From: Coriobacteriia bacterium
Lineage (GTDB): Bacteria; Actinomycetota; Coriobacteriia; Anaerosomatales; PALSA-660
Length of the DNA: 44,053 nucleotides
Assembly (NCBI GenBank): GCA_025361445.1
Contig: JANYLP010000015.1
Location: 1 to 44,053, forward strand
Direction of reading: 5' to 3'
Position numbers and translations under genes: made by a program. The notes beneath the pieces were generated by a model. That model was given only the letters and a program-made list of their open reading frames with translations, made no database searches and was not told where the DNA came from. Numbering within the stretch: the stretch's first letter is position 1; each line of letters begins with the position of its first letter. Below, in pieces: positions 13,428 through 25,097 of the stretch.

Positions 13428-14062
13428 CGGGGCCAGAAGTAGTTATGACGGCTCTCGTGCCCGATCGTCGTGTCGGGGCCGTGGCCCGGATGGACGACCG
13501 TGGAGGGCGGCAACGACGCGAGCACGGCGATCGAGGCCCTCAAGGCGCGTGGATCGCCCCCCGGGAAGTCGGTGCGTCCTACGCTTCCGGCGAACAGCGT
13601 GTCCCCCGAAAACAGGTGCTCGTCCCCATCGAACCCGCTCGCCAGGAGACTGACCGAGCCCGGGGTGTGCCCCGGTGTGGCCCAAACCGAAAGGGTCAGA
13701 CCGCCCGCAGTGATGATGTCTCCGTCGGAGAGCAGCCGGTCGGGTGCGGGTGCGGCGAAGTCGAATCCGAACGCCGCTCCCCCGTTGTCCTCCGCGGACA
13801 TGATCGACTCGGCGTCATCCACGTTGACGAGAAGCGGCGCGCCGGTGGCTTTCACGACCTCCGCCGCCGCACCGAGATGGTCGAAATGGCCGTGCGTCAG
13901 CACGACCGCGGCGACCGGTCGGCCCGCGACCGCCTCGAGTACCCGAGCCGGTTCGGCAGCAGGGTCGATCACGACGAGCGGACCGCCCGACACGTCGGAG
14001 ACGATCCAGCAGTTGGTGTCGAGCTCGCCAAGGACGAGTCGCGTGACGGAGAGCGCGGTCAC
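13424..14062 (-). CDS. Metallo-beta-lactamase fold hydrolase, glyoxalase II-like
   Basis: This is a 212-residue MBL-fold protein. The metal motif THGHFDHLG is at residues 56-64, a further His is in ATPGHTPGSVSLL, the bridging Asp is in FSGDTLFAGSVGRTDFPGG, and the last His is in VVHPGHGPDTTIG. The FAGSVGRTDFPGGD signature is that of the YcbL/YqgX-type hydroxyacylglutathione hydrolase-like group. Glutathione is not expected here, so the thiol ester substrate is open. GTG 14062 overlaps the rel stop by 4 bases, and its own stop overlaps crcB, so it is translationally coupled on both sides. A longer frame upstream runs antisense-like through the rel end and is rejected. Confidence 0.88.
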   Translation of the reverse strand: MTALSVTRLVLGELDTNCWIVSDVSGGPLVVIDPAAEPARVLEAVAGRPVAAVVLTHGHFDHLGAAAEVVKATGAPLLVNVDDAESIMSAEDNGGAAFGFDFAAPAPDRLLSDGDIITAGGLTLSVWATPGHTPGSVSLLASGFDGDEHLFSGDTLFAGSVGRTDFPGGDPRALRASIAVLASLPPSTVVHPGHGPDTTIGHESRHNYFWPR

Positions 14063-16263
14063 GAGCGCTGCAAGCCGGGCGAGGGCATCATGCGGTCCGC
14101 CGAGAAGACGCCGTCGAGTCCGCGTACGCGCGCAAGGACGGCACCGAGCTGCTCCATGTTCCCCAGCTCGAACAAGAAGCGCATCGTGGCGATGCCCTGC
14201 CTGTCGGTGGCGATGTTGGCGGACAGCACGCTCACGCCCGCCTCGGCCAGCGCGACGGTTACATCGCGCAGAAGCGCCGTTCGGTCGCGCGCCTCGATGT
14301 AGATCTCCACCTGGTACGTGGTAGCGGCGTCGGTGTCCCACTCGACTTCGATGATGCGCTCCGGACTTGTGAGGAGGTCCTTTGCGTTCGGGCAGTCCTT
14401 CCGATGCACTGACACGCCGCGGCCGCGCGTCACGAAGCCGACGAGCGGGTCGCCGGGCACGGGGTTACAGCATCGAGCGAGGCGTACCAGCAGGTCGTCG
14501 ATCCCCTTGACGCGAACACCCGTGACCGACTTGCGGCGGTTGGATCTGGGAGCGATCATCGGGGTCGCGAGCGTGAACTCGGGCTTCTCCGGTTCGGCGG
14601 GGGCCGCCTCGGTCCCGGCGAGCAGCTTGATGAGCTTGCCCACGACCATCTTGGCGGAGACCTTGCCGGCCCCGATGTGGGCGACCAGATCGTCCGACTC
14701 GGCGAAGTTCATCTCTTTGGCGATCGCCGTGAGAGCCCTGACCCCCGCCGACGATCCGATCGAGAGCCCCTGCTTGCGAAGGATCTTCTGCAAATCGTCC
14801 TTGCCACAGGCAAGGTCATCGGTGCGGCTGGCTTTCGAGAAGAACGTGCGGATCTTGCTTCGCGCGCTCGAGGTGCGCACGATGTTGAGCCAGTCGCGGG
14901 ACGGTCCCGCGGAGCCTTTGTTCGTCATGATCTCGACGCGGTCACCCATCTGCAGCTCGTAGCCGAGCGGCACGATGGACCCGTTGATCTTCGCGCCGAC
15001 GGTGTGGTTGCCGATCTCGGTGTGGATCTGGTAGGCGAAGTCGATGGGAGTCGACCCTTTGCGTAGGCTGACCACATCGCCCTTGGGCGTGAAGACGAAC
15101 ACCTCGTCCTCGAACAGGTCGATCTTGAGCGCCTCCATGAACTCGCGAGGGTCCTTGAGCTCGGTCTGCCACTCGAGCATCTGCCGCAACCAGGCGAGAC
15201 GCTCGTCGAAGCTCTCGTCGCTGCGGCCGCCGTCCTTGTAGCGCCAGTGTGCCGCGATGCCGTACTCCGCGGTGCGGTGCATCTCCTCGGTACGGATCTG
15301 GAGTTCGAGGGGACGGCCCGCGGGGCCGATGACGGTCGTGTGCAGTGATTGGTACATGTTGAACTTCGGCATCGCCACGTAGTCCTTGAAACGCCCCGGC
15401 ACCGGCTTCCAGATGGAGTGGACCGTGCCGAGTGCGCCGTAGCAGTCCTTCACCGAGGCGACGATGATCCGCAGAGCGATCAGGTCGTATATCTCGTTGA
15501 AGTCCTTATCTTTCTGGGACATCTTCTGGTAGATGCTGTAGAAGTGCTTCGGCCGCCCCGAGATCTCGGCGTGGATGCCCACCTCACCAAGTTCCCGAGT
15601 CAGTTCGTCGATGACCTGCTTGAGATACGCCTCACGGGCGGCGCGGCTGTCGGACACGAGACGCTGTATCTGCTGATACTTCTGCGGCTCGAGCACCTTC
15701 ATGCACAGGTCCTCGAGCTCCCACTTGACCTGCTGGATCCCGAGCCGGTGCGCGAGCGGCGCGTAGATCTCCATTGTCTCGATCGCCTTGTCGCGCTGAC
15801 GCGTCGCGTCGAGGAACTCGATCGTCCGCATGTTGTGCAGGCGGTCGGCGAGCTTGATGAGGATGACGCGGATGTCCTTCGCCATGGCGATGAGCATCTT
15901 GCGCAGGTTCTGGGACTGAGCCTCGTCGCGCGAATCGAATTTGATCTTGCCGAGCTTGGTGACGCCGTCCACGAGCGCCGCGACCTCTTCGCCGAACGCG
16001 GCGCGGACCTGCGCGACCGTGACCTTGCTGTCTTCCACCGTGTCGTGGAGCAGGCCCGCTATCAGCGTCTCCATGTCGAGGTGCAGCTCAGCAAGGATGC
16101 CGCATGCTTCGACCGGGTGCGTGATGAACGGCTCGCCGGAGTTGCGCATCTGCCCCTCGTGCGCGGCGGCGGCGAAATCGTAGGCGCGGCGCAGCAGTGC
16201 GATATCCACCGACGGGTTGTAGGCGGAGACGCGCTTCTCGAGCTGCTCCATCGTGAGGGTCAC
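14059..16263 (-). CDS. rel: Bifunctional (p)ppGpp synthetase/hydrolase (Rel)
   Basis: This is a full-length long RSH protein of 734 residues. An N-terminal HD hydrolase domain has LIAGLLHDTVEDSKVT and KLADRLHNMRTIEFLD. The synthetase domain has GRPKHFYSIYQKM and FKDYVAMPKFNMYQSLHTT. Next come TGS (VFVFTPKGDVVSLRKGSTPI), a zinc-finger region with LARCCNPVPGDPLVGF and HRKDCPN, and a C-terminal ACT domain. Both catalytic centres look intact, so it makes and breaks the alarmone. GTG 16263 has GGGAG about 6 bases upstream. A TAGAAT box sits at 16317-16322, so it has its own promoter after the RecJ fusion. Confidence 0.96.
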   Translation of the reverse strand: MTLTMEQLEKRVSAYNPSVDIALLRRAYDFAAAAHEGQMRNSGEPFITHPVEACGILAELHLDMETLIAGLLHDTVEDSKVTVAQVRAAFGEEVAALVDGVTKLGKIKFDSRDEAQSQNLRKMLIAMAKDIRVILIKLADRLHNMRTIEFLDATRQRDKAIETMEIYAPLAHRLGIQQVKWELEDLCMKVLEPQKYQQIQRLVSDSRAAREAYLKQVIDELTRELGEVGIHAEISGRPKHFYSIYQKMSQKDKDFNEIYDLIALRIIVASVKDCYGALGTVHSIWKPVPGRFKDYVAMPKFNMYQSLHTTVIGPAGRPLELQIRTEEMHRTAEYGIAAHWRYKDGGRSDESFDERLAWLRQMLEWQTELKDPREFMEALKIDLFEDEVFVFTPKGDVVSLRKGSTPIDFAYQIHTEIGNHTVGAKINGSIVPLGYELQMGDRVEIMTNKGSAGPSRDWLNIVRTSSARSKIRTFFSKASRTDDLACGKDDLQKILRKQGLSIGSSAGVRALTAIAKEMNFAESDDLVAHIGAGKVSAKMVVGKLIKLLAGTEAAPAEPEKPEFTLATPMIAPRSNRRKSVTGVRVKGIDDLLVRLARCCNPVPGDPLVGFVTRGRGVSVHRKDCPNAKDLLTSPERIIEVEWDTDAATTYQVEIYIEARDRTALLRDVTVALAEAGVSVLSANIATDRQGIATMRFLFELGNMEQLGAVLARVRGLDGVFSADRMMPSPGLQRS

Positions 16264-16332: not shown

Positions 16333-19300
16333 CTACGCCGTAGGCAGGATCGGCCGGTCGAAGGCCGCGAGAAGCTCCTCGGCGCGTGCCGCGAGCACCC
16401 ACGTACGGAACTCCGCGAACTCCTCGGCCTCCTCTACGCCTTCGGCGTATCGGACGGACGAAGTCAGGTCGACTTTCCCGTCGACGGGCAGCAGTGAGAG
16501 GCGTCGGTAGGCGCCTGAACCCTCCCCTGTCACGAGTCCCACTTCACGGAACACGCCGAGGCCCGAGGATGCGCCGCGGTCGGTCATGCGCGACCTCGGG
16601 CGGCGCTTCTTCACCTCTGCAGCGAGCTCTGCGTTCGTGACCTCGACCCAGCCATCCGCGGCGGAGTTGCCCATCGCCCTGAGTGCGGCGTACAGGGCCC
16701 GCAACTCCTCGAGATCGGGTGCGCCCGATTCGAGCACCAGCTCGTTGACCCGGCCGTCGCGCTCGCCGAACAGCAGGTGAACCGTCGCCTGGTCGCCATC
16801 GCGTCCCGCCCGGCCGCACATCTGGTTGAACTCGACCCGGTTGAAGGGCAGGTGGTAGAGAGCGACGTGCCGGACGTCCGGGATATCGACGCCTTCACCG
16901 AACGCACTCGTCGCGACGATCGCCGTGATGTCGCCGGCGCGGAAGGCCCTCTCGACCGCGTGACGGGCTGCACGGGACACGCCACCGTTGTAGAAGGCCA
17001 CGCGCTGTGCGAGATGCGGGCTCGCATCGCGCAGTCGCATGGCGAGCCGCACCGATTCGTCACGGCTGTTCACGTAGACGATGACCTTCTCCCCGCGCGC
17101 GGCGATGGCCGCCAGGTGCCCGGCCTTGTCGGCGAGACCGCGCCGATCGGCCACGCGCAGGTTGTCGCGGCGTGTGTCATCGAGAACGAGCGCGTCGATC
17201 CCGAGCGTACTGCGGATCACGGAGGCGGCGTCGTCGCCCGCGGTGGCGGTCACGGCGCAGACGACGGGGTGCCCGAGCGTCTCCAACGCGTCGCCGAGGC
17301 GCGAGTAGGCGGGGCGGTGGCCGGCACGCGCGAGCCCCACGTGATGCGCCTCATCGACGACGATGAAGCGCACGCGACTGCTCTGGGCGAAACGGGCCGC
17401 ATGGCGTTCGAGGAACTCCGGCGTGGTGAGCAGTACGTCGAGGCCGCCCTCGGCAAGCGCGGCGAAGATCTCGTCGCGGCCGCCGGGAGCCGTCTCGCCG
17501 GTGATCACCTTCACCGCCAGACCGAGGGAAGCGAACGCCTCGGTGAGGTGGAACGCCTGGTCGGCGACGAGCGCGCGCAGCGGATAGACGAACACGCTCG
17601 CCTCCCCGCGCGCGAGTGCGACGCGAGCGGCGTGCGACTGGAACACGAACGACTTGCCGCGGCCGGTGGCCATGACCGCGAGGCACGAACGGCCCGCGGC
17701 GAGGTGTGCCAACGCCTCGACCTGTGCGGGATGAGGGACCCGCTCGCCGATGAGCGCGCGGGTGATCTCGGCATCGCGCTCCGCGGGGTCCAGCGCCGAG
17801 AGCTCTGCGCGCCGGGCCACCCGCGCTTCTGTCTCTCGCTCCGCCTCGTCCTCGGCCCCGGGCCGGGAGAACAGCACGTTGACGCCGCGCGCACCCGCCT
17901 CGTCGCCGCCGGTGACGTCCGTGACGCTGACGTCCCACTCCGCGCCGGAGTCGAGGGCGGGCGCAAGCACCGATGCGAGGCGCCGATTGAGGAAGCCGAT
18001 CTGCTCCCCCGTCGGGGCGAGGACCGCGATCGCGTTGGGGTCGAACTCGTTCTCCGGCTGCCGCACGAGCCGGAGCGGCATCCCCGGCTGCAGGCGCGCC
18101 ACGACATCCTGCCGGCCTTCGAAACTGACGCCGGCCAGCTTTGTGTGGAACGACTCGGCGTCGGCTATCCCCTCGTACTCACCGCGTGCCAGTATCCGGG
18201 CTGCGTCGGCGAAGAGCTCCTCGACCAGTTCCGCCGCCGGAGCGTCCACGGGGGCCTCGTGCACGGCGATGCTGCGCACGACTAGCTGCACCCGCTCCCG
18301 GCCGCGCCACTCGTCCGTCTCGAGCGAGTATGCGAGGTCGACCGCAGCCTCGCGACCAGCCAACGCAGCGGCCTCGGGAACCCGGAACGCGATCGCCGGG
18401 ATCGAGGAGATACCGTCGTACGCCTCGAACTTGAGATGTTCGGCCGCCTTCCCGACGAGGGAGCGCTGGGACATGAACACACCGCGCGTCCCCATGAGCG
18501 GTCGGGCGTTTCCCTGTCCGAACGGTTCGAGAGCGGACAGCGCGACCGACAATCGGCGCGTCGCGTCGTGGAGCGGTAACTCCGCATCGACGACGATGCG
18601 GCTCCCGAATGCCTCCGCGGGCAGCGCGGCGAGCGCGTTCTGCAACCGATCGGCGAACGCTCCCAGCGAAGCGACGGGCAGCGTCGCACCCACCGCGGCC
18701 GCATGTCCACCGAAGCGGGTCAGCAGGTCGGAGCACGCTTGAAGAGCCGCGTGCAGGTCGACCTGGCCGACGCTGCGTCCGCTTCCGCGAGCCTCCCCAT
18801 CCTCGATGCTGAAGATGAGCGCCGGGACGCCGTACCGTCCGGCCACCCGCGACGCCACGATGCCACGCACGCCCTCGTGCCACCCCTCGCCGGCCAGAAC
18901 AAGCACGCGGCAATCGGGCCGCCATGCAACCTCGGCCGCGCGCAGCGCCTCCTCGGACAAGTCGGCCTCCGCAGCCTGGCGCACGGTGTTGTAGCCGTCC
19001 AACGCCGACGCTATCTCCGCGGCGCGGACGGCATCGTCGGTCAACAGCAGTTCCAGCGCTTCGGCCGGATCCGCGATGCGCCCGGCGGCATTGAGCCGCG
19101 GGGCGAGCCCGAACGCGATCCTGTCCGATGTCAGGGTCGCGATGTCGACGCGACCCACGCTGCATAGCGCGGCGATCCCGCGACGCGGCGACGTGCGCGC
19201 TTTGGCGAGGCCGGCTGCCACGAGCGCGCGATTCTCGTCGAGTACCGGAACGATGTCCGCCACCGTTCCGATCGCGGCAAGGTCGGTGAGCTCGAGCCAG

Positions 19301-19962
19301 GCGTCCGGGAACCCGAGCCGCGCGCCCACGGCGGCGATGACCTTCAGGGCGACGCCGGCTCCGGCCAGGCCCGTGAAGGCGTAGGCGCCGAGCTTTGGAT
19401 CGCACACGGGCACGCCATCGGGCAGTCCCTCGCCCGGTTCGTGGTGGTCGGTCACGACGACGTCGACGCCCGCAGCACGGAGCATGCCGACCTCGCGCGC
19501 GCTGCCGATGCCACAGTCAACGGTGATGACGAGACCCGGGTTCATGGTGAGCACTCGGGCCACTGCCGCGTCCGAGAGCCCGTAGCCTTCTTCGAAACGG
19601 TGCGGGACGACCGCGCTCACGGTAGCGCCCATCGCCTCAAGGCCGCGGCAAGCGACCGCGGCCGCCGTCAGGCCATCGACGTCGAAGTCCCCGAACACGA
19701 CGATGGACCGGCCTTCCCGCACGGCAGCAGCGACCGCGTCGGCGCATGCGGGCATGCCGGGCAGCGTCTCGGGGTCGCGCCAGTCTCGCGCGAGGTCCGG
19801 GCTCAGAAAGCGCCGCGCCTCATCGGCCGTGGTGACTCCGCGCAGGGTGAGCACCCGCGCCACCACCGGCTCGAGCCCCGTGGAGGCCGCCAGTGCCGAG
19901 ACCGCGCCCTCGTCAACAGGGGCGCAGCTCCAAAGCGTGGATGAGTGGTGGGGGCTGGACAC
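16333..19962 (-). CDS. recJ: RecJ exonuclease - HIRAN - SF2 helicase fusion protein
   Basis: One uninterrupted frame of 1209 residues joins three modules. Residues 1-~560 are RecJ: GDFDVDGLTA (91-100), VDCGIG (148-153), TDHHEP (171-176), IGTVADIVP (231-239), GWHEGVRGIVASR (360-372), RFGGHAAAVG (416-425) and PFGQGN (480-485). Residues ~605-697 are a HIRAN domain (GVSFEGRQ, RLVRQPENEFDPNAIAVLAP, GFLNRRLA). Residues ~740-1090 are a RecQ-like helicase core: ATGRGKS (765-771), TTPEF, DEAHH (870-874), TATAGD (905-910) and QMCGRAGRDG (1047-1056). The cysteine zinc domain of true RecQ is absent; a winged-helix-like C-terminus follows. The start GTG 19962 lies 8 bases after TAGCAT and has no ribosome site. 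It probably resects DNA ends with its own unwinding motor. Confidence 0.93.
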   Translation of the reverse strand: MSSPHHSSTLWSCAPVDEGAVSALAASTGLEPVVARVLTLRGVTTADEARRFLSPDLARDWRDPETLPGMPACADAVAAAVREGRSIVVFGDFDVDGLTAAAVACRGLEAMGATVSAVVPHRFEEGYGLSDAAVARVLTMNPGLVITVDCGIGSAREVGMLRAAGVDVVVTDHHEPGEGLPDGVPVCDPKLGAYAFTGLAGAGVALKVIAAVGARLGFPDAWLELTDLAAIGTVADIVPVLDENRALVAAGLAKARTSPRRGIAALCSVGRVDIATLTSDRIAFGLAPRLNAAGRIADPAEALELLLTDDAVRAAEIASALDGYNTVRQAAEADLSEEALRAAEVAWRPDCRVLVLAGEGWHEGVRGIVASRVAGRYGVPALIFSIEDGEARGSGRSVGQVDLHAALQACSDLLTRFGGHAAAVGATLPVASLGAFADRLQNALAALPAEAFGSRIVVDAELPLHDATRRLSVALSALEPFGQGNARPLMGTRGVFMSQRSLVGKAAEHLKFEAYDGISSIPAIAFRVPEAAALAGREAAVDLAYSLETDEWRGRERVQLVVRSIAVHEAPVDAPAAELVEELFADAARILARGEYEGIADAESFHTKLAGVSFEGRQDVVARLQPGMPLRLVRQPENEFDPNAIAVLAPTGEQIGFLNRRLASVLAPALDSGAEWDVSVTDVTGGDEAGARGVNVLFSRPGAEDEAERETEARVARRAELSALDPAERDAEITRALIGERVPHPAQVEALAHLAAGRSCLAVMATGRGKSFVFQSHAARVALARGEASVFVYPLRALVADQAFHLTEAFASLGLAVKVITGETAPGGRDEIFAALAEGGLDVLLTTPEFLERHAARFAQSSRVRFIVVDEAHHVGLARAGHRPAYSRLGDALETLGHPVVCAVTATAGDDAASVIRSTLGIDALVLDDTRRDNLRVADRRGLADKAGHLAAIAARGEKVIVYVNSRDESVRLAMRLRDASPHLAQRVAFYNGGVSRAARHAVERAFRAGDITAIVATSAFGEGVDIPDVRHVALYHLPFNRVEFNQMCGRAGRDGDQATVHLLFGERDGRVNELVLESGAPDLEELRALYAALRAMGNSAADGWVEVTNAELAAEVKKRRPRSRMTDRGASSGLGVFREVGLVTGEGSGAYRRLSLLPVDGKVDLTSSVRYAEGVEEAEEFAEFRTWVLAARAEELLAAFDRPILPTA

Positions 19963-20064: not shown

Positions 20065-20964
20065 TCACTTGGCAGCGGCGAACTTCTTTGCGAGCGCCTG
20101 GTAGCGCGGCTCGCGCTCCTTCCACATCGCGTAGAGCGGTGCTGCGACGCCAACCGACGAATATGCGCCGGAGAGCAGTCCGATGGTGAGCGCGAATGCG
20201 AAGTCCTTCAGCGTGTCCTGCCCGAAGATGAGCAGGCACACGACCGGGATCAGCGACGACAGGCCGGTGTTGATCCAGCGCGCGAGCACCTGGTTCAGCG
20301 AGTCGTTGGCCATCGACATGAAGGTCTTTTTGGTCAGGCTCTGGGTGTTCTCACGGATCCGATGGAACACGACGATCGTGTCGTAGAGCGAGTATCCGAG
20401 GATCGTCAGGAGCGCGGCGACCGTGTTCGGCGTCAGCTCCCGTCCCAGCAGGGCATAGAGGCCGAGCGTGATGAGAGCGTCATGCACGAGTGCGACGACG
20501 CCCGTGACGGCCATCTTGTACTCGAACCGGATCGAGACGTAGAGCAGGATCGCGATGATCGACACGGCGAGAGCGAGCATCGCAGCGTTCGTGATCCCGG
20601 CTCCCCACTCGGGCCCGATCGTGCTTACCTGCGTGTCGGCGGCAGCGACGCCGAGGGCGGTGGCCACCTCGGCGGCCTGCCTTCCGGCGACCGTCGCACT
20701 CGGCTCGGTCGAGCGGACGATGAAGCCGGAGCCGATGGTCTGGACGGTCCCGTCGACGATGTTGGCCTTGACGACCGCGTCACGGACCTCCGTGAGTGTC
20801 ACGGCCGTCGAGCCGCTGAGCGTGATCTTGGTGCCGCCCTTGAACTCGTATCCGAGGGTCAGGCCCTTGAATGCGAGCGAACCGATGGCGACCGCCAGAA
20901 CCACGGACGAAGCCAGGAAGAGCCACTTGCGATTGCCCATGAAGTCGATGTAGGGCCTACGCAT
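20065..20964 (-). CDS. secF: Protein translocase subunit SecF
   Basis: This is a 299-residue RND-type partner of SecD that uses the proton gradient to drive late steps of Sec export. It has a first membrane helix (NRKWLFLASSVVLAVAIGSL) and the SecF signature LGYEFKGGTKITLSG. Five more helices are visible, among them NAAMLALAVSIIAILLYVSIRFEYKMA and ILGYSLYDTIVVFHRIRENT. ATG 20964 lies 8 bases inside the secD end with AAGGGCGG upstream, so the pair is coupled. The order yajC-HD gene-secD-secF is on one strand. Confidence 0.95.
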   Translation of the reverse strand: MRRPYIDFMGNRKWLFLASSVVLAVAIGSLAFKGLTLGYEFKGGTKITLSGSTAVTLTEVRDAVVKANIVDGTVQTIGSGFIVRSTEPSATVAGRQAAEVATALGVAAADTQVSTIGPEWGAGITNAAMLALAVSIIAILLYVSIRFEYKMAVTGVVALVHDALITLGLYALLGRELTPNTVAALLTILGYSLYDTIVVFHRIRENTQSLTKKTFMSMANDSLNQVLARWINTGLSSLIPVVCLLIFGQDTLKDFAFALTIGLLSGAYSSVGVAAPLYAMWKEREPRYQALAKKFAAAK

Positions 20965-22576
20965 CTGCGCGACCGCCCTTCACGCCGAAGAAAGCGGGGA
21001 TCTTGGCGACCACGCTCTCCGAGAGAAGGATGACCATCGGGCGCGTGAAGAGCAGCGCGATAGCCATGTCGCACACGATACCGATCATGAGCGTGAGCGC
21101 GAAGCCCTTGACCGTGCCGCTCGCGAACAGGAACAGCGGGATCGCGCTGGCGAACGTCACGGCGTCGGCGTCGAGCGAAGTCAGGATCGCGTGCTTCGAG
21201 CCCGACTTCGCAGCCGTGCGCGGGGTGCGGCCCATCGCGATCTCTTCCTTGTAGCGCTCGAAGATCAGGATCGACGTGTCGGCCGCGAGACCGATCGATA
21301 GCACGATGCCGGCGATACCCGGCAGCGAGAGCGCGTACTGGCCAGCATGGGAGAGCAGCGAGAGCAGACCCAGGTAGACGACCGCGAAGGCACCGAGCGA
21401 GAACCACGAGAGCACGCCGAACCCGCGGTAGTAGATCCCGAGGTAGATGCAGACGATCACGAGCCCGACAAGGGCGGCCAGTATGCCCTTCGCGAGCGCG
21501 TCCTGGCCGAGCGTCGGGCCGACACTCTCGGTCTGAGAAGCCTGCAGGTTGACGGGCAGGGCGCCCGACTTGAGGATCGCAGCGAGCGTCTTGGCCTCGT
21601 CGGCGGTGAAGCTGCCACTGATCTCGGTCTTGCCGTCCGGGATGGAGCTCAGTACCGACGGGGCCGACTTCACGATGCCGTCGAGCACGATCGCGACGCG
21701 CGCCCGGGTTGGTGCCGCCTTGGCGGTCACCTTGGCCCAGATGTCGGTGCCCGCCGGATTGAAGGTCATGTTGACGACGTATCCGGGCTTCAGCTTATCG
21801 CCGCTCGCACCGGCCGAGGCGTCGGTGATGACCTCGCCGGTCATGAAGGCCTTGTAGGTACCGGGGACCATGACGTAGCCATCCTGGATCAGGCCCTGCG
21901 TCGTGGTGTCGAGGCTGGAGACCTCGAGGAACTCGAGCTGACCGGTCGAGCCGAGCGCCTTGAGCGCCGCCTGCGAGTCCTTGACTCCCGGCAGCTGCAC
22001 GAGGATGGCCTTGCTGTCGCTCTCGAGCTGAACGGTGGCCTCCGACACGCCCAGTCCGTTCACGCGGTTGCTCATGATCGTGAGCGCGCGCGACATCGCC
22101 GCAGCATCCGCCGGCTTGGTCGGTGTCAGCGTCACGGACAGTCCACCGCGAAGGTCGAGGCTCTGCGTGATGCTGGGGCGCCCCTCTTCCATCGTGAACT
22201 CCTGCGCGTGCACGGTGAATGTCGTCCCGTACGAGACGAGCGCTTCGCGCACAGGCAGACCGCCAACGAACACCGGCTCCGTCGTGTCGGCGGAAGCAAC
22301 GATGCGCCAGCTTTCACCAGCGGTCGAGGTCGATTCCGTGACCCGCGAGAGCGTGGCCAGCGTCGTCCCGGGCTGCCCTGAAGCGACGACCTCCACTGCG
22401 CCGCCATTGAGCACGATGCTCGCGGCGGACTGTGTGAGCGTGAAGCTCTGCTTCGCGGCCGCGGTCCTCCACGAAACCGTGTCGGACTGCTTGAGTGGCA
22501 GCAGCGAGAAGAGGGATCCGATCAGCAGTACGATCAGGCCCCCGACGGCGAGTAGGTTCTTCTGCCTCGATTTCAT
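20957..22576 (-). CDS. secD: Protein translocase subunit SecD
   Basis: The protein has 539 residues. One N-terminal helix (about 9-28) is followed by a long extracytoplasmic part, then DLRGGLSVTL (141-150) and the P1 domain (SNRVNGLGVSEATVQLESD, ILVQLPGV). The C-terminal five-helix RND part includes GIAGIVLSIGLAADTSILIF and ASGTVKGFALTLMIGI. About 110 residues separate the first helix from DLRGG, longer than in the Bacillus SecDF type but with parallels in E. coli. The usual DANVLIFE motif reads DTSILIFE; the aspartate is kept. ATG 22576 has GGAAGG six bases upstream. Confidence 0.94.
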   Translation of the reverse strand: MKSRQKNLLAVGGLIVLLIGSLFSLLPLKQSDTVSWRTAAAKQSFTLTQSAASIVLNGGAVEVVASGQPGTTLATLSRVTESTSTAGESWRIVASADTTEPVFVGGLPVREALVSYGTTFTVHAQEFTMEEGRPSITQSLDLRGGLSVTLTPTKPADAAAMSRALTIMSNRVNGLGVSEATVQLESDSKAILVQLPGVKDSQAALKALGSTGQLEFLEVSSLDTTTQGLIQDGYVMVPGTYKAFMTGEVITDASAGASGDKLKPGYVVNMTFNPAGTDIWAKVTAKAAPTRARVAIVLDGIVKSAPSVLSSIPDGKTEISGSFTADEAKTLAAILKSGALPVNLQASQTESVGPTLGQDALAKGILAALVGLVIVCIYLGIYYRGFGVLSWFSLGAFAVVYLGLLSLLSHAGQYALSLPGIAGIVLSIGLAADTSILIFERYKEEIAMGRTPRTAAKSGSKHAILTSLDADAVTFASAIPLFLFASGTVKGFALTLMIGIVCDMAIALLFTRPMVILLSESVVAKIPAFFGVKGGRADA

Positions 22577-22685: not shown

Positions 22686-23426
22686 CTAGAGCAGCTTCGT
22701 ACCGTTTATCTCGAGATGGAACGTCGCGTCGAGCACCGAAGCAGCCGCGCGACACATCTGCATGCGGGAGAGGAATATCTCGAAGTACTCCATGACCTGG
22801 CTCGCCGAGGTGTCGATGTCGAGTTCCAGCGTGAGCGTGCGCGCCGCGCCGTCCACGCGCAGGAACGACCGGCTCGCGGCGTGGTTGACGCGGTCGTGGA
22901 TGTCGAACGCCGCGGGATCGGGATTACGCACCCGTGTGTGATGGACGTCGGACTTGTCGGCGATGATCGTCGCGGCCCCTACCGGGTTGGCGGGGGTGCC
23001 GAACTCCTCTTCATGGTTGCCGAGCGCATTCATGATGTGGATGGTCTCGATGGGGTCCATCCCGAGTTCGCGCAGCACCTCGCGCGCGAGCATCGCCGAG
23101 CTGACGCCGTGGTGGTCACGTCCGATGCAGTTGCCGATGTCGTGAGTGAAGCCGGCGATCTCGGCGAGCTCCACCTGGCGCTCCTCGAAGCCCAGCCGCC
23201 GCATGATGTTCCCGGCGATGTGGGAGACCAGGTTCGCGTGACGGAAGCCGTGCTCCGTGTAGCCGATGGCGCCAAGGTACTCGTCGGCGACCTCGATCAT
23301 CGCCTTGACGTCCGGAGAGGCCACCACGTCCGCGATGGTCACGCGGCGCCACACCGTCGGCGACGGTGCGGGCGCGGGCGGCTCGACGTCCCCGGCCGCC
23401 GAGGTGGGGATCCCGGTGTCACTCAT
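22686..23426 (-). CDS. HD-domain phosphohydrolase in the sec operon
   Basis: The protein has 246 residues. After a Pro/Ala-rich N-terminus comes an HD domain with all expected metal ligands: His63 (FRHANLVSHI), His95-Asp96 (AGFTHDIGN), His105/His106 (GRDHHGVSS), His138 (NALGNHEEEF) and Asp157 (IIADKSDVHH). The pattern HDIGN-x-x-x-R-x-x-H resembles HD-GYP and related nucleotide phosphohydrolases, but the GYP triad is not present as such. The C-terminal part (~190-246) looks like a small alpha/beta domain. Its ATG overlaps the yajC stop by 8 bases, so it is translated with yajC and sits between yajC and secD. The substrate is unknown; cyclic dinucleotides or nucleotides are plausible. Confidence 0.82.
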   Translation of the reverse strand: MSDTGIPTSAAGDVEPPAPAPSPTVWRRVTIADVVASPDVKAMIEVADEYLGAIGYTEHGFRHANLVSHIAGNIMRRLGFEERQVELAEIAGFTHDIGNCIGRDHHGVSSAMLAREVLRELGMDPIETIHIMNALGNHEEEFGTPANPVGAATIIADKSDVHHTRVRNPDPAAFDIHDRVNHAASRSFLRVDGAARTLTLELDIDTSASQVMEYFEIFLSRMQMCRAAASVLDATFHLEINGTKLL

Positions 23427-23709
23427 CGACGGGAGCGACGTCCTCGGTCATGCGTTCGATGATGGCGCGCTTCGTGAACTGCCCGACGACACCGGGGGCG
23501 ATCTCGATGTTCAGGACGTCGCCGTCGACGGAGCGCAGCGTGCCGATGAGGCCGCCGGCGGTCATCAGTCGATCACCGGGAGCGAGCGCAGCGAGCATCT
23601 CGGTCGACTTCTTGCGCTGCGTCTGCTGGGGACGGAACCACAGGAAGTAGAACACTCCCCCTATGAGAACCATGTAGACGATGAAGGAGGTGATCTCGGA
23701 ACTGCTCAT
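23419..23709 (-). CDS. yajC: Preprotein translocase subunit YajC
   Basis: The protein has 96 residues, with one N-terminal membrane helix (FIVYMVLIGGVFYFLWFRPQ) followed by QQTQRKKSTEMLAALAPGDR and the conserved MTAGGLIGTL. It is the small partner of SecDF at the SecYEG channel. ATG 23709 has GGGAG upstream. A TATCAT box lies at 23816-23821. It starts the yajC-HD-secD-secF group after tgt. Confidence 0.95.
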   Translation of the reverse strand: MSSSEITSFIVYMVLIGGVFYFLWFRPQQTQRKKSTEMLAALAPGDRLMTAGGLIGTLRSVDGDVLNIEIAPGVVGQFTKRAIIERMTEDVAPVDE

Positions 23710-23815
23710 GAGGAGTGACTCCCGTCGATACGGGCACGAGATCCGAGTCCGCGGGACCCGTGCGATGGTGTCCGGTGCGCGCAACGGCCGCGAGAACAGC
23801 GGTCGGAGCGTTCCG

Positions 23816-23821
23816 ATGATA
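23816..23821 (-). promoter_or_regulatory. Putative -10 box for yajC
   Basis: The minus strand reads TATCAT in the sequence GTGCTATCATCGG, about 107 bases before the yajC start, in the 167-base gap between tgt and yajC. No -35 box stands out. The same hexamer is proposed for the ECF sigma gene. Confidence 0.4.
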
Positions 23822-23830
23822 GCACCGCCA

Positions 23831-23858
23831 CTCGCGCGCTCGTGTGCGCACACGCGAG
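23831..23858 (-). repeat. GC-rich inverted repeat with alternating purine-pyrimidine core after tgt
   Basis: CTCGCG (23831-23836) pairs with CGCGAG (23853-23858) around a core that is itself palindromic (CGTGTGCGCACACG). It lies about 20 bases after the tgt stop and just ahead of the yajC -10 box. It may end tgt transcription; there is no U-tract. Confidence 0.4.
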
Positions 23859-23876
23859 GGCGCGCGCCCGCCATGG

Positions 23877-25097
<1,221 letters not shown>

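Follow-up and report, generated by a model that had tools for sequence, protein, structure and literature searches.

Gene content of the locus

The window (the whole 44,053-nucleotide stretch of Coriobacteriia DNA that was analysed) carries, on its minus strand, a gene whose product combines RecJ, a HIRAN domain and a RecQ-like helicase in a single protein. Translation of the minus strand of 16333-19962 gives one open frame of 1209 residues without interruption, and the plus strand of the same interval contains several stops. The initial annotation, which was silent on strand, had described just such a 1209-residue protein, and both the single frame and the Pfam domains within it bear this out. 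The features of the locus are as follows.

14059..16263, minus strand: relA/spoT, downstream neighbour (TIGR00691, 815 bits)
16333..19962, minus strand: recJ-HIRAN-helicase fusion gene, 1209 aa, GTG start, defined by its single frame and its domains
19267..19704, minus strand: DHH domain, residues 87-232 (Pfam PF01368)
Residues 91-97, 147-151, 172-174 and 236: RecJ motifs I (GDFDVDG), II (TVDCG), III (DHH) and IV (D236)
18631..18909, minus strand: DHHA1 domain, residues 352-444 (Pfam PF02272), with GSGRS at 393-397 and GGH at 418-420
18274..18591, minus strand: RecJ_OB domain, residues 458-563 (Pfam PF17768)
17944..18153, minus strand: HIRAN domain, residues 604-673, probably extending to about 697 (Pfam PF08797)
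17227..17730, minus strand: SF2 helicase domain 1, residues 745-912 (Pfam PF00270, DEAD), with MATGRGKS at 764-771 and DEAHH at 870-874
16795..17103, minus strand: SF2 helicase domain 2, residues 954-1056 (Pfam PF00271, Helicase_C), with motif V at 1017-1031 and motif VI (QMCGRAGRDG) at 1047-1056
16336..16746, minus strand: C-terminal winged-helix-like domain, residues 1073-1209, without zinc cysteines and homologous to other Actinomycetota RecJ tails
20065..20964, minus strand: secF, upstream neighbour (TIGR00966, 285 bits)
20957..22576, minus strand: secD, context (TIGR01129, 326 bits)

Further upstream, a 246-residue minus-strand frame (22686-23426) lies between secD and the yajC frame and matches no NCBIfam model at E 1e-10. 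In the 440-residue yajC frame itself (23419-24741, minus strand), the YajC match covers only residues 352-430, and the upstream part of this frame is unassigned and may reflect a wrong start or an overlapping gene.

The fusion gene comes after secF, as had been noted initially, and this arrangement is widely conserved. RelA follows the fusion in all 70 loci with a long enough contig, and SecF precedes it in 47 of the 73 loci with enough upstream sequence. The same secD-secF-recJ-relA order is also found with short RecJs (L149, L150), in the genome G007 discussed below (L147) and in Paenibacillus (L166). The fusion is the sole RecJ of the source genome; none of the other DHH frames reaches the recJ model, and the frame on C69 lies between the infB and truB regions, which is the gene order of NrnA. 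The earlier proposal that the fusion had replaced the ancestral gene is contradicted by these observations, and replacement of recJ by an unrelated gene is ruled out by synteny and by the presence of one RecJ per genome. Because gene order is common to fused and short RecJs, the fusion is the ancestral recJ extended in place. The best explanation is that the ancestral recJ gained a HIRAN and RecQ-like helicase module at its original locus, with decay or loss of this module afterwards in several lineages.

A RecJ nuclease joined to a HIRAN domain and a RecQ-like motor

All of the expected domains (DHH, DHHA1, RecJ_OB, HIRAN, DEAD and Helicase_C) score above the Pfam gathering cut-offs. The protein scores 454 bits against the NCBIfam recJ model (TIGR00644, cut-off 397) and thus belongs to that family. 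In Deinococcus radiodurans RecJ, the metal ligands are Asp79, Asp81, Asp83, Asp135, His159 and Asp223, and His397 is the general acid (PMC4846377). Alignment to the structure 5f54 places D92, D94, D96, D149, H173, D236 and H420 of the fusion at these positions, and all seven residues are invariant across 30 homologues sharing 45-71% identity with the window protein. Accordingly, the DHH-DHHA1-OB core and all catalytic residues are shared with bacterial RecJ (TIGR00644; 5f54 from D. radiodurans, 8y30 from S. aureus and 2zxo from T. thermophilus), and the RecJ part is predicted to be a complete 5'-3' single-strand exonuclease. What sets the fusion apart from these proteins is about 640 additional residues, namely the HIRAN domain, an intact helicase and the winged-helix-like domain.

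The HIRAN match (E 1e-12, 47.8 bits against a cut-off of 24.7) establishes membership of that family, and in phmmer searches the domain matches the HIRAN structures of HLTF (E 8e-4). Two aromatic residues of HLTF HIRAN, Tyr72 and Tyr93, stack on DNA (PMC4666394). The fusion shares with HLTF the N-x-(F/Y)-D-x-N-A-I segment in which Tyr93 lies, with Phe at the Tyr93 position. The fusion HIRAN further differs from that of HLTF in being joined to a RecQ-like rather than an Snf2 motor and in being often lost. It is absent from 27 of 83 fusion proteins, and a form without HIRAN occurs naturally in Collinsella. The fewest changes that account for this on a tree built without the HIRAN columns (a quick tree, no bootstrap) number five, with well-supported branches forcing at least four. 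Since the outgroup fusions have HIRAN, the simplest history comprises about five losses, in which HIRAN was optional and the helicase was kept nearly always. HIRAN is therefore not essential to the machine. The initial annotation had HIRAN placing the 3' end; such a role is possible, but the repeated loss rules out that the domain is an indispensable part.

The helicase motifs are complete (SF2 motifs I to VI, including MATGRGKS, DEAHH, TATA, motif V and QMCGRAGRDG), and K770, D870, E871, R1051 and R1054 are invariant in the same 30 homologues. RecQ is the nearest kin of this motor by both sequence and Foldseek, and the RecQ models match it below their cut-off (recQ_fam 151-154 against 219.8 bits). 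The RecQ zinc site is absent, as no Cys occurs after residue 1049, in agreement with the initial description of full SF2 motifs without the zinc cysteines. The aromatic-rich loop after DEAH is also changed compared to RecQ of known structure, the aromatics of RecQ being missing. With the zinc module absent and the loop lacking these aromatics, the efficiency and polarity of unwinding are uncertain. Judged from sequence, the helicase part is a RecQ-like SF2 motor, but it is not a RecQ by the curated family test.

No Pfam family matched the last 137 residues. A structural model of residues 905-1209 (mean pLDDT 90) has RecQ structures ranking first in Foldseek, the top match being RECQ1 D2-Zn-WH over 290 columns, but at TM 0.42 and rmsd 9.5. 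For the model of residues 10-1209 (mean pLDDT 88, pTM 0.73), RecJ structures come first among the PDB neighbours, followed by RecQ-family helicases. The RecQ family (E. coli RecQ, WRN, BLM, RECQL4/5) provides the helicase core closest in sequence and fold, and the domain after domain 2 may correspond to its winged helix. The fusion departs from it in its score below the recQ cut-off, its lack of zinc cysteines, its changed loop and its covalently attached RecJ.

Distribution of the fusion and of separate RecQ

The fusion occurs throughout Coriobacteriia and in three other families of Actinomycetota. The fusion model matches in 244 of 248 Coriobacteriia genomes, a count that includes RecJ-only and fragmentary matches and for which not every frame is listed; matches are present in all 221 genomes that are at least 90% complete, and the four genomes without one are 59-82% complete. 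In a second sample, 37 of 38 Coriobacteriia encode their single RecJ within a frame 1111-1284 residues long. The lone exception is G007, whose 568-residue RecJ is directly followed by RelA/SpoT (L147:1429-5439), the HIRAN-helicase half being cleanly absent. In this genus, G091 is RecJ-only as well, and two sister genomes retain the fusion. Among 396 genomes sampled from the phylum, the only fused frames outside Coriobacteriia were in the families f29, f91 and f82, and all seven of these carry HIRAN; other Actinomycetota RecJs are either about 550-620 residues long or about 800-940 residues long with a tail. Two overlapping frames take the place of the single one in Atopobium minutum (L052:6001-9689) and in one uncultured Coriobacteriales (L054:4186-7823). 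These splits lie at different points (about residues 394 and 497) and are frameshifts, which could be either sequencing errors or real.

Whether recQ is also present as a separate gene had been raised as a check. The source genome encodes a free-standing 421-residue RecQ that has zinc cysteines and lies beside xseA (L127:1611-2876, minus strand), which rules out the loss of recQ from this genome. At this length the protein has no room for a winged helix or HRDC. Only 5 of 21 fusion-bearing genomes, the source genome included, have a separate RecQ above the family cut-off, and no other RecQ reaching it was found in the remaining 16. A second RecQ-family helicase above the cut-off occurs in another genome, within a 1195-residue frame (G013:C7:8034-9182). 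A fusion that supplies its own helicase thus fits most lineages, though not necessarily the source genome. The two genomes of the G007 genus without the HIRAN-helicase part also have no RecQ above the cut-off, so the coupling of nuclease and helicase is not indispensable.

RecJ tails of other Gram-positive bacteria

The tails of about 300 residues on the 800-940-residue RecJs of other Actinomycetota matched no Pfam family (five tested). Profile-profile comparison with the fused region aligned them at 98.7% probability over 242 columns, spanning first helicase domain 2 and then the C-terminal domain, and column-shuffled and reversed controls gave less than 3%. Against single parts (hhalign), the tails scored 93% with domain 2 and 97% with the C-terminal domain, and profile comparison with helicase domain 1 or HIRAN gave nothing. 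Two of the tails were also matched by a plain helicase HMM, at domain 2 (E 4e-5 and 9e-5); 700 shuffles gave no match. The catalytic helicase motifs are gone from these tails. These comparisons argue strongly that the Actinomycetota tails are a decayed helicase domain 2 followed by the same C-terminal domain.

RecJ of Bacilli also carries a tail. The Paenibacillus RecJ tail is PF10141 (ssDNA-exonuc_C), and this tail is also present in 8y30, the RecJ structure from S. aureus. PF10141, present on Bacilli RecJ such as those of S. aureus and B. subtilis, occupies the same place after RecJ_OB as the fused module, and the recJ genes of other Gram-positives lie at the same site beside secDF and relA. 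The PF10141 tail differs from the fused module in having about 200 residues, no helicase domain 1 and no catalytic motifs. PF10141 also matches one tail among the Paenibacillus-grouped Actinomycetota, in the right place (E 1.3e-4). In the RecJ-core tree, Paenibacillus groups with most of the remaining tailed Actinomycetota (support 95/74, moderate), and the tails of family f69 group with the f29, f91 and f82 fusions (support 86/91, moderate). When the fused region was compared directly with the Paenibacillus tail, the score was 86%, mostly from the C-terminal domain. PF10141 has no match in the window protein or the source genome, so the link runs through the Actinomycetota tail intermediates, via which PF10141 is distantly homologous to helicase domain 2 and the C-terminal domain. 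The tail profile found no useful match in the PDB, the 8y30 tail was not among the top 50 Foldseek matches of the 905-1209 model, and a search of viral contigs for a Bacilli recJ found nothing. With moderate confidence, the PF10141 tail of Bacilli RecJ is probably likewise a decayed helicase domain 2 with its C-terminal domain.

Taken further, we lean slightly towards an ancient RecJ-helicase fusion in Gram-positives, in which the Bacilli PF10141 and Actinomycetota tails would be fossils of a RecQ-like motor (domain 2 and the winged-helix-like domain, without ATPase motifs) that is intact in Coriobacteriia. The helicase module could have been gained either once or more than once.

Proposed function and alternatives

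In well-studied bacteria, RecJ and RecQ are separate proteins, and they form the textbook pair of the RecF pathway. RecJ can start only from a free 5' single strand; at blunt ends or 3' overhangs it depends on a helicase such as RecQ, whose 3'-5' unwinding opens them, and no direct contact between RecJ and RecQ of D. radiodurans was found (PMC4846377). The inability of RecJ to attack such ends without a helicase defines a need that the fusion would meet, and we consider it probable that the protein is a single-chain DNA resection enzyme. At a DNA end or the edge of a gap, the helicase would, like RecQ, track 3'-5' along the 3'-ended strand and peel off the complementary strand, whose 5' end would pass to the RecJ site of the same molecule. 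RecJ would then degrade the displaced 5' strand, leaving a 3' single strand for RecA, and HIRAN, where present, may help capture the 3' end or junction. With helicase and nuclease both moving inward in one chain, an end could be resected without recruiting a helicase. RecBCD and AddAB also join helicase and nuclease in one resection machine, and by analogy the fusion may work in the same manner; it differs from them in being built from unrelated nuclease and helicase families in a single chain. The initial annotation had envisaged a self-contained resection or fork-processing machine. Independence from a separate RecQ remains the best inference given the 16 genomes above, yet the source genome does have a RecQ.

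Fork processing is a less likely main role. According to this explanation, the HIRAN-helicase part would act on stalled forks and flaps in the manner of HLTF or RecQ, RecJ would then trim nascent 5' ends or gaps, and other enzymes would resect double-strand ends. The match to HLTF HIRAN structures is consistent with it, as HLTF HIRAN drives fork remodelling (PMC4666394), and so is an AddA-like frame of 1178 residues in the source genome, which scores below the family cut-off. But about five losses of HIRAN left the helicase in place, and the motor is RecQ-like and not Snf2-like.

More doubtful still is a role of the helicase part as a DNA-dependent ATPase or clamp, which would leave the duplex closed and would position or regulate RecJ. 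Such a part could explain the missing zinc module, the changed aromatic-rich loop and the persistence of the related Actinomycetota tails despite loss of their catalytic motifs. SF2 motifs I to VI are nevertheless all there, and the key helicase residues, which do not vary within the class or outside it, point to selection on catalysis. Finally, an assembly or sequencing artefact joining two neighbouring genes is ruled out by the same single frame in dozens of independent contigs from unrelated assemblies, cultured strains included.

Single-chain resection is the preferred explanation. No description of a RecJ-helicase fusion was found in the open-licence papers searched, and an earlier account elsewhere is possible. 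As a natural fusion kept across a class, the protein offers one polypeptide in which the hand-over of the 5' end from helicase to nuclease could be studied by structure and point mutations. The tail link, in turn, proposes an origin and a testable fold for the domain of unknown function on Bacillus and Staphylococcus RecJ.
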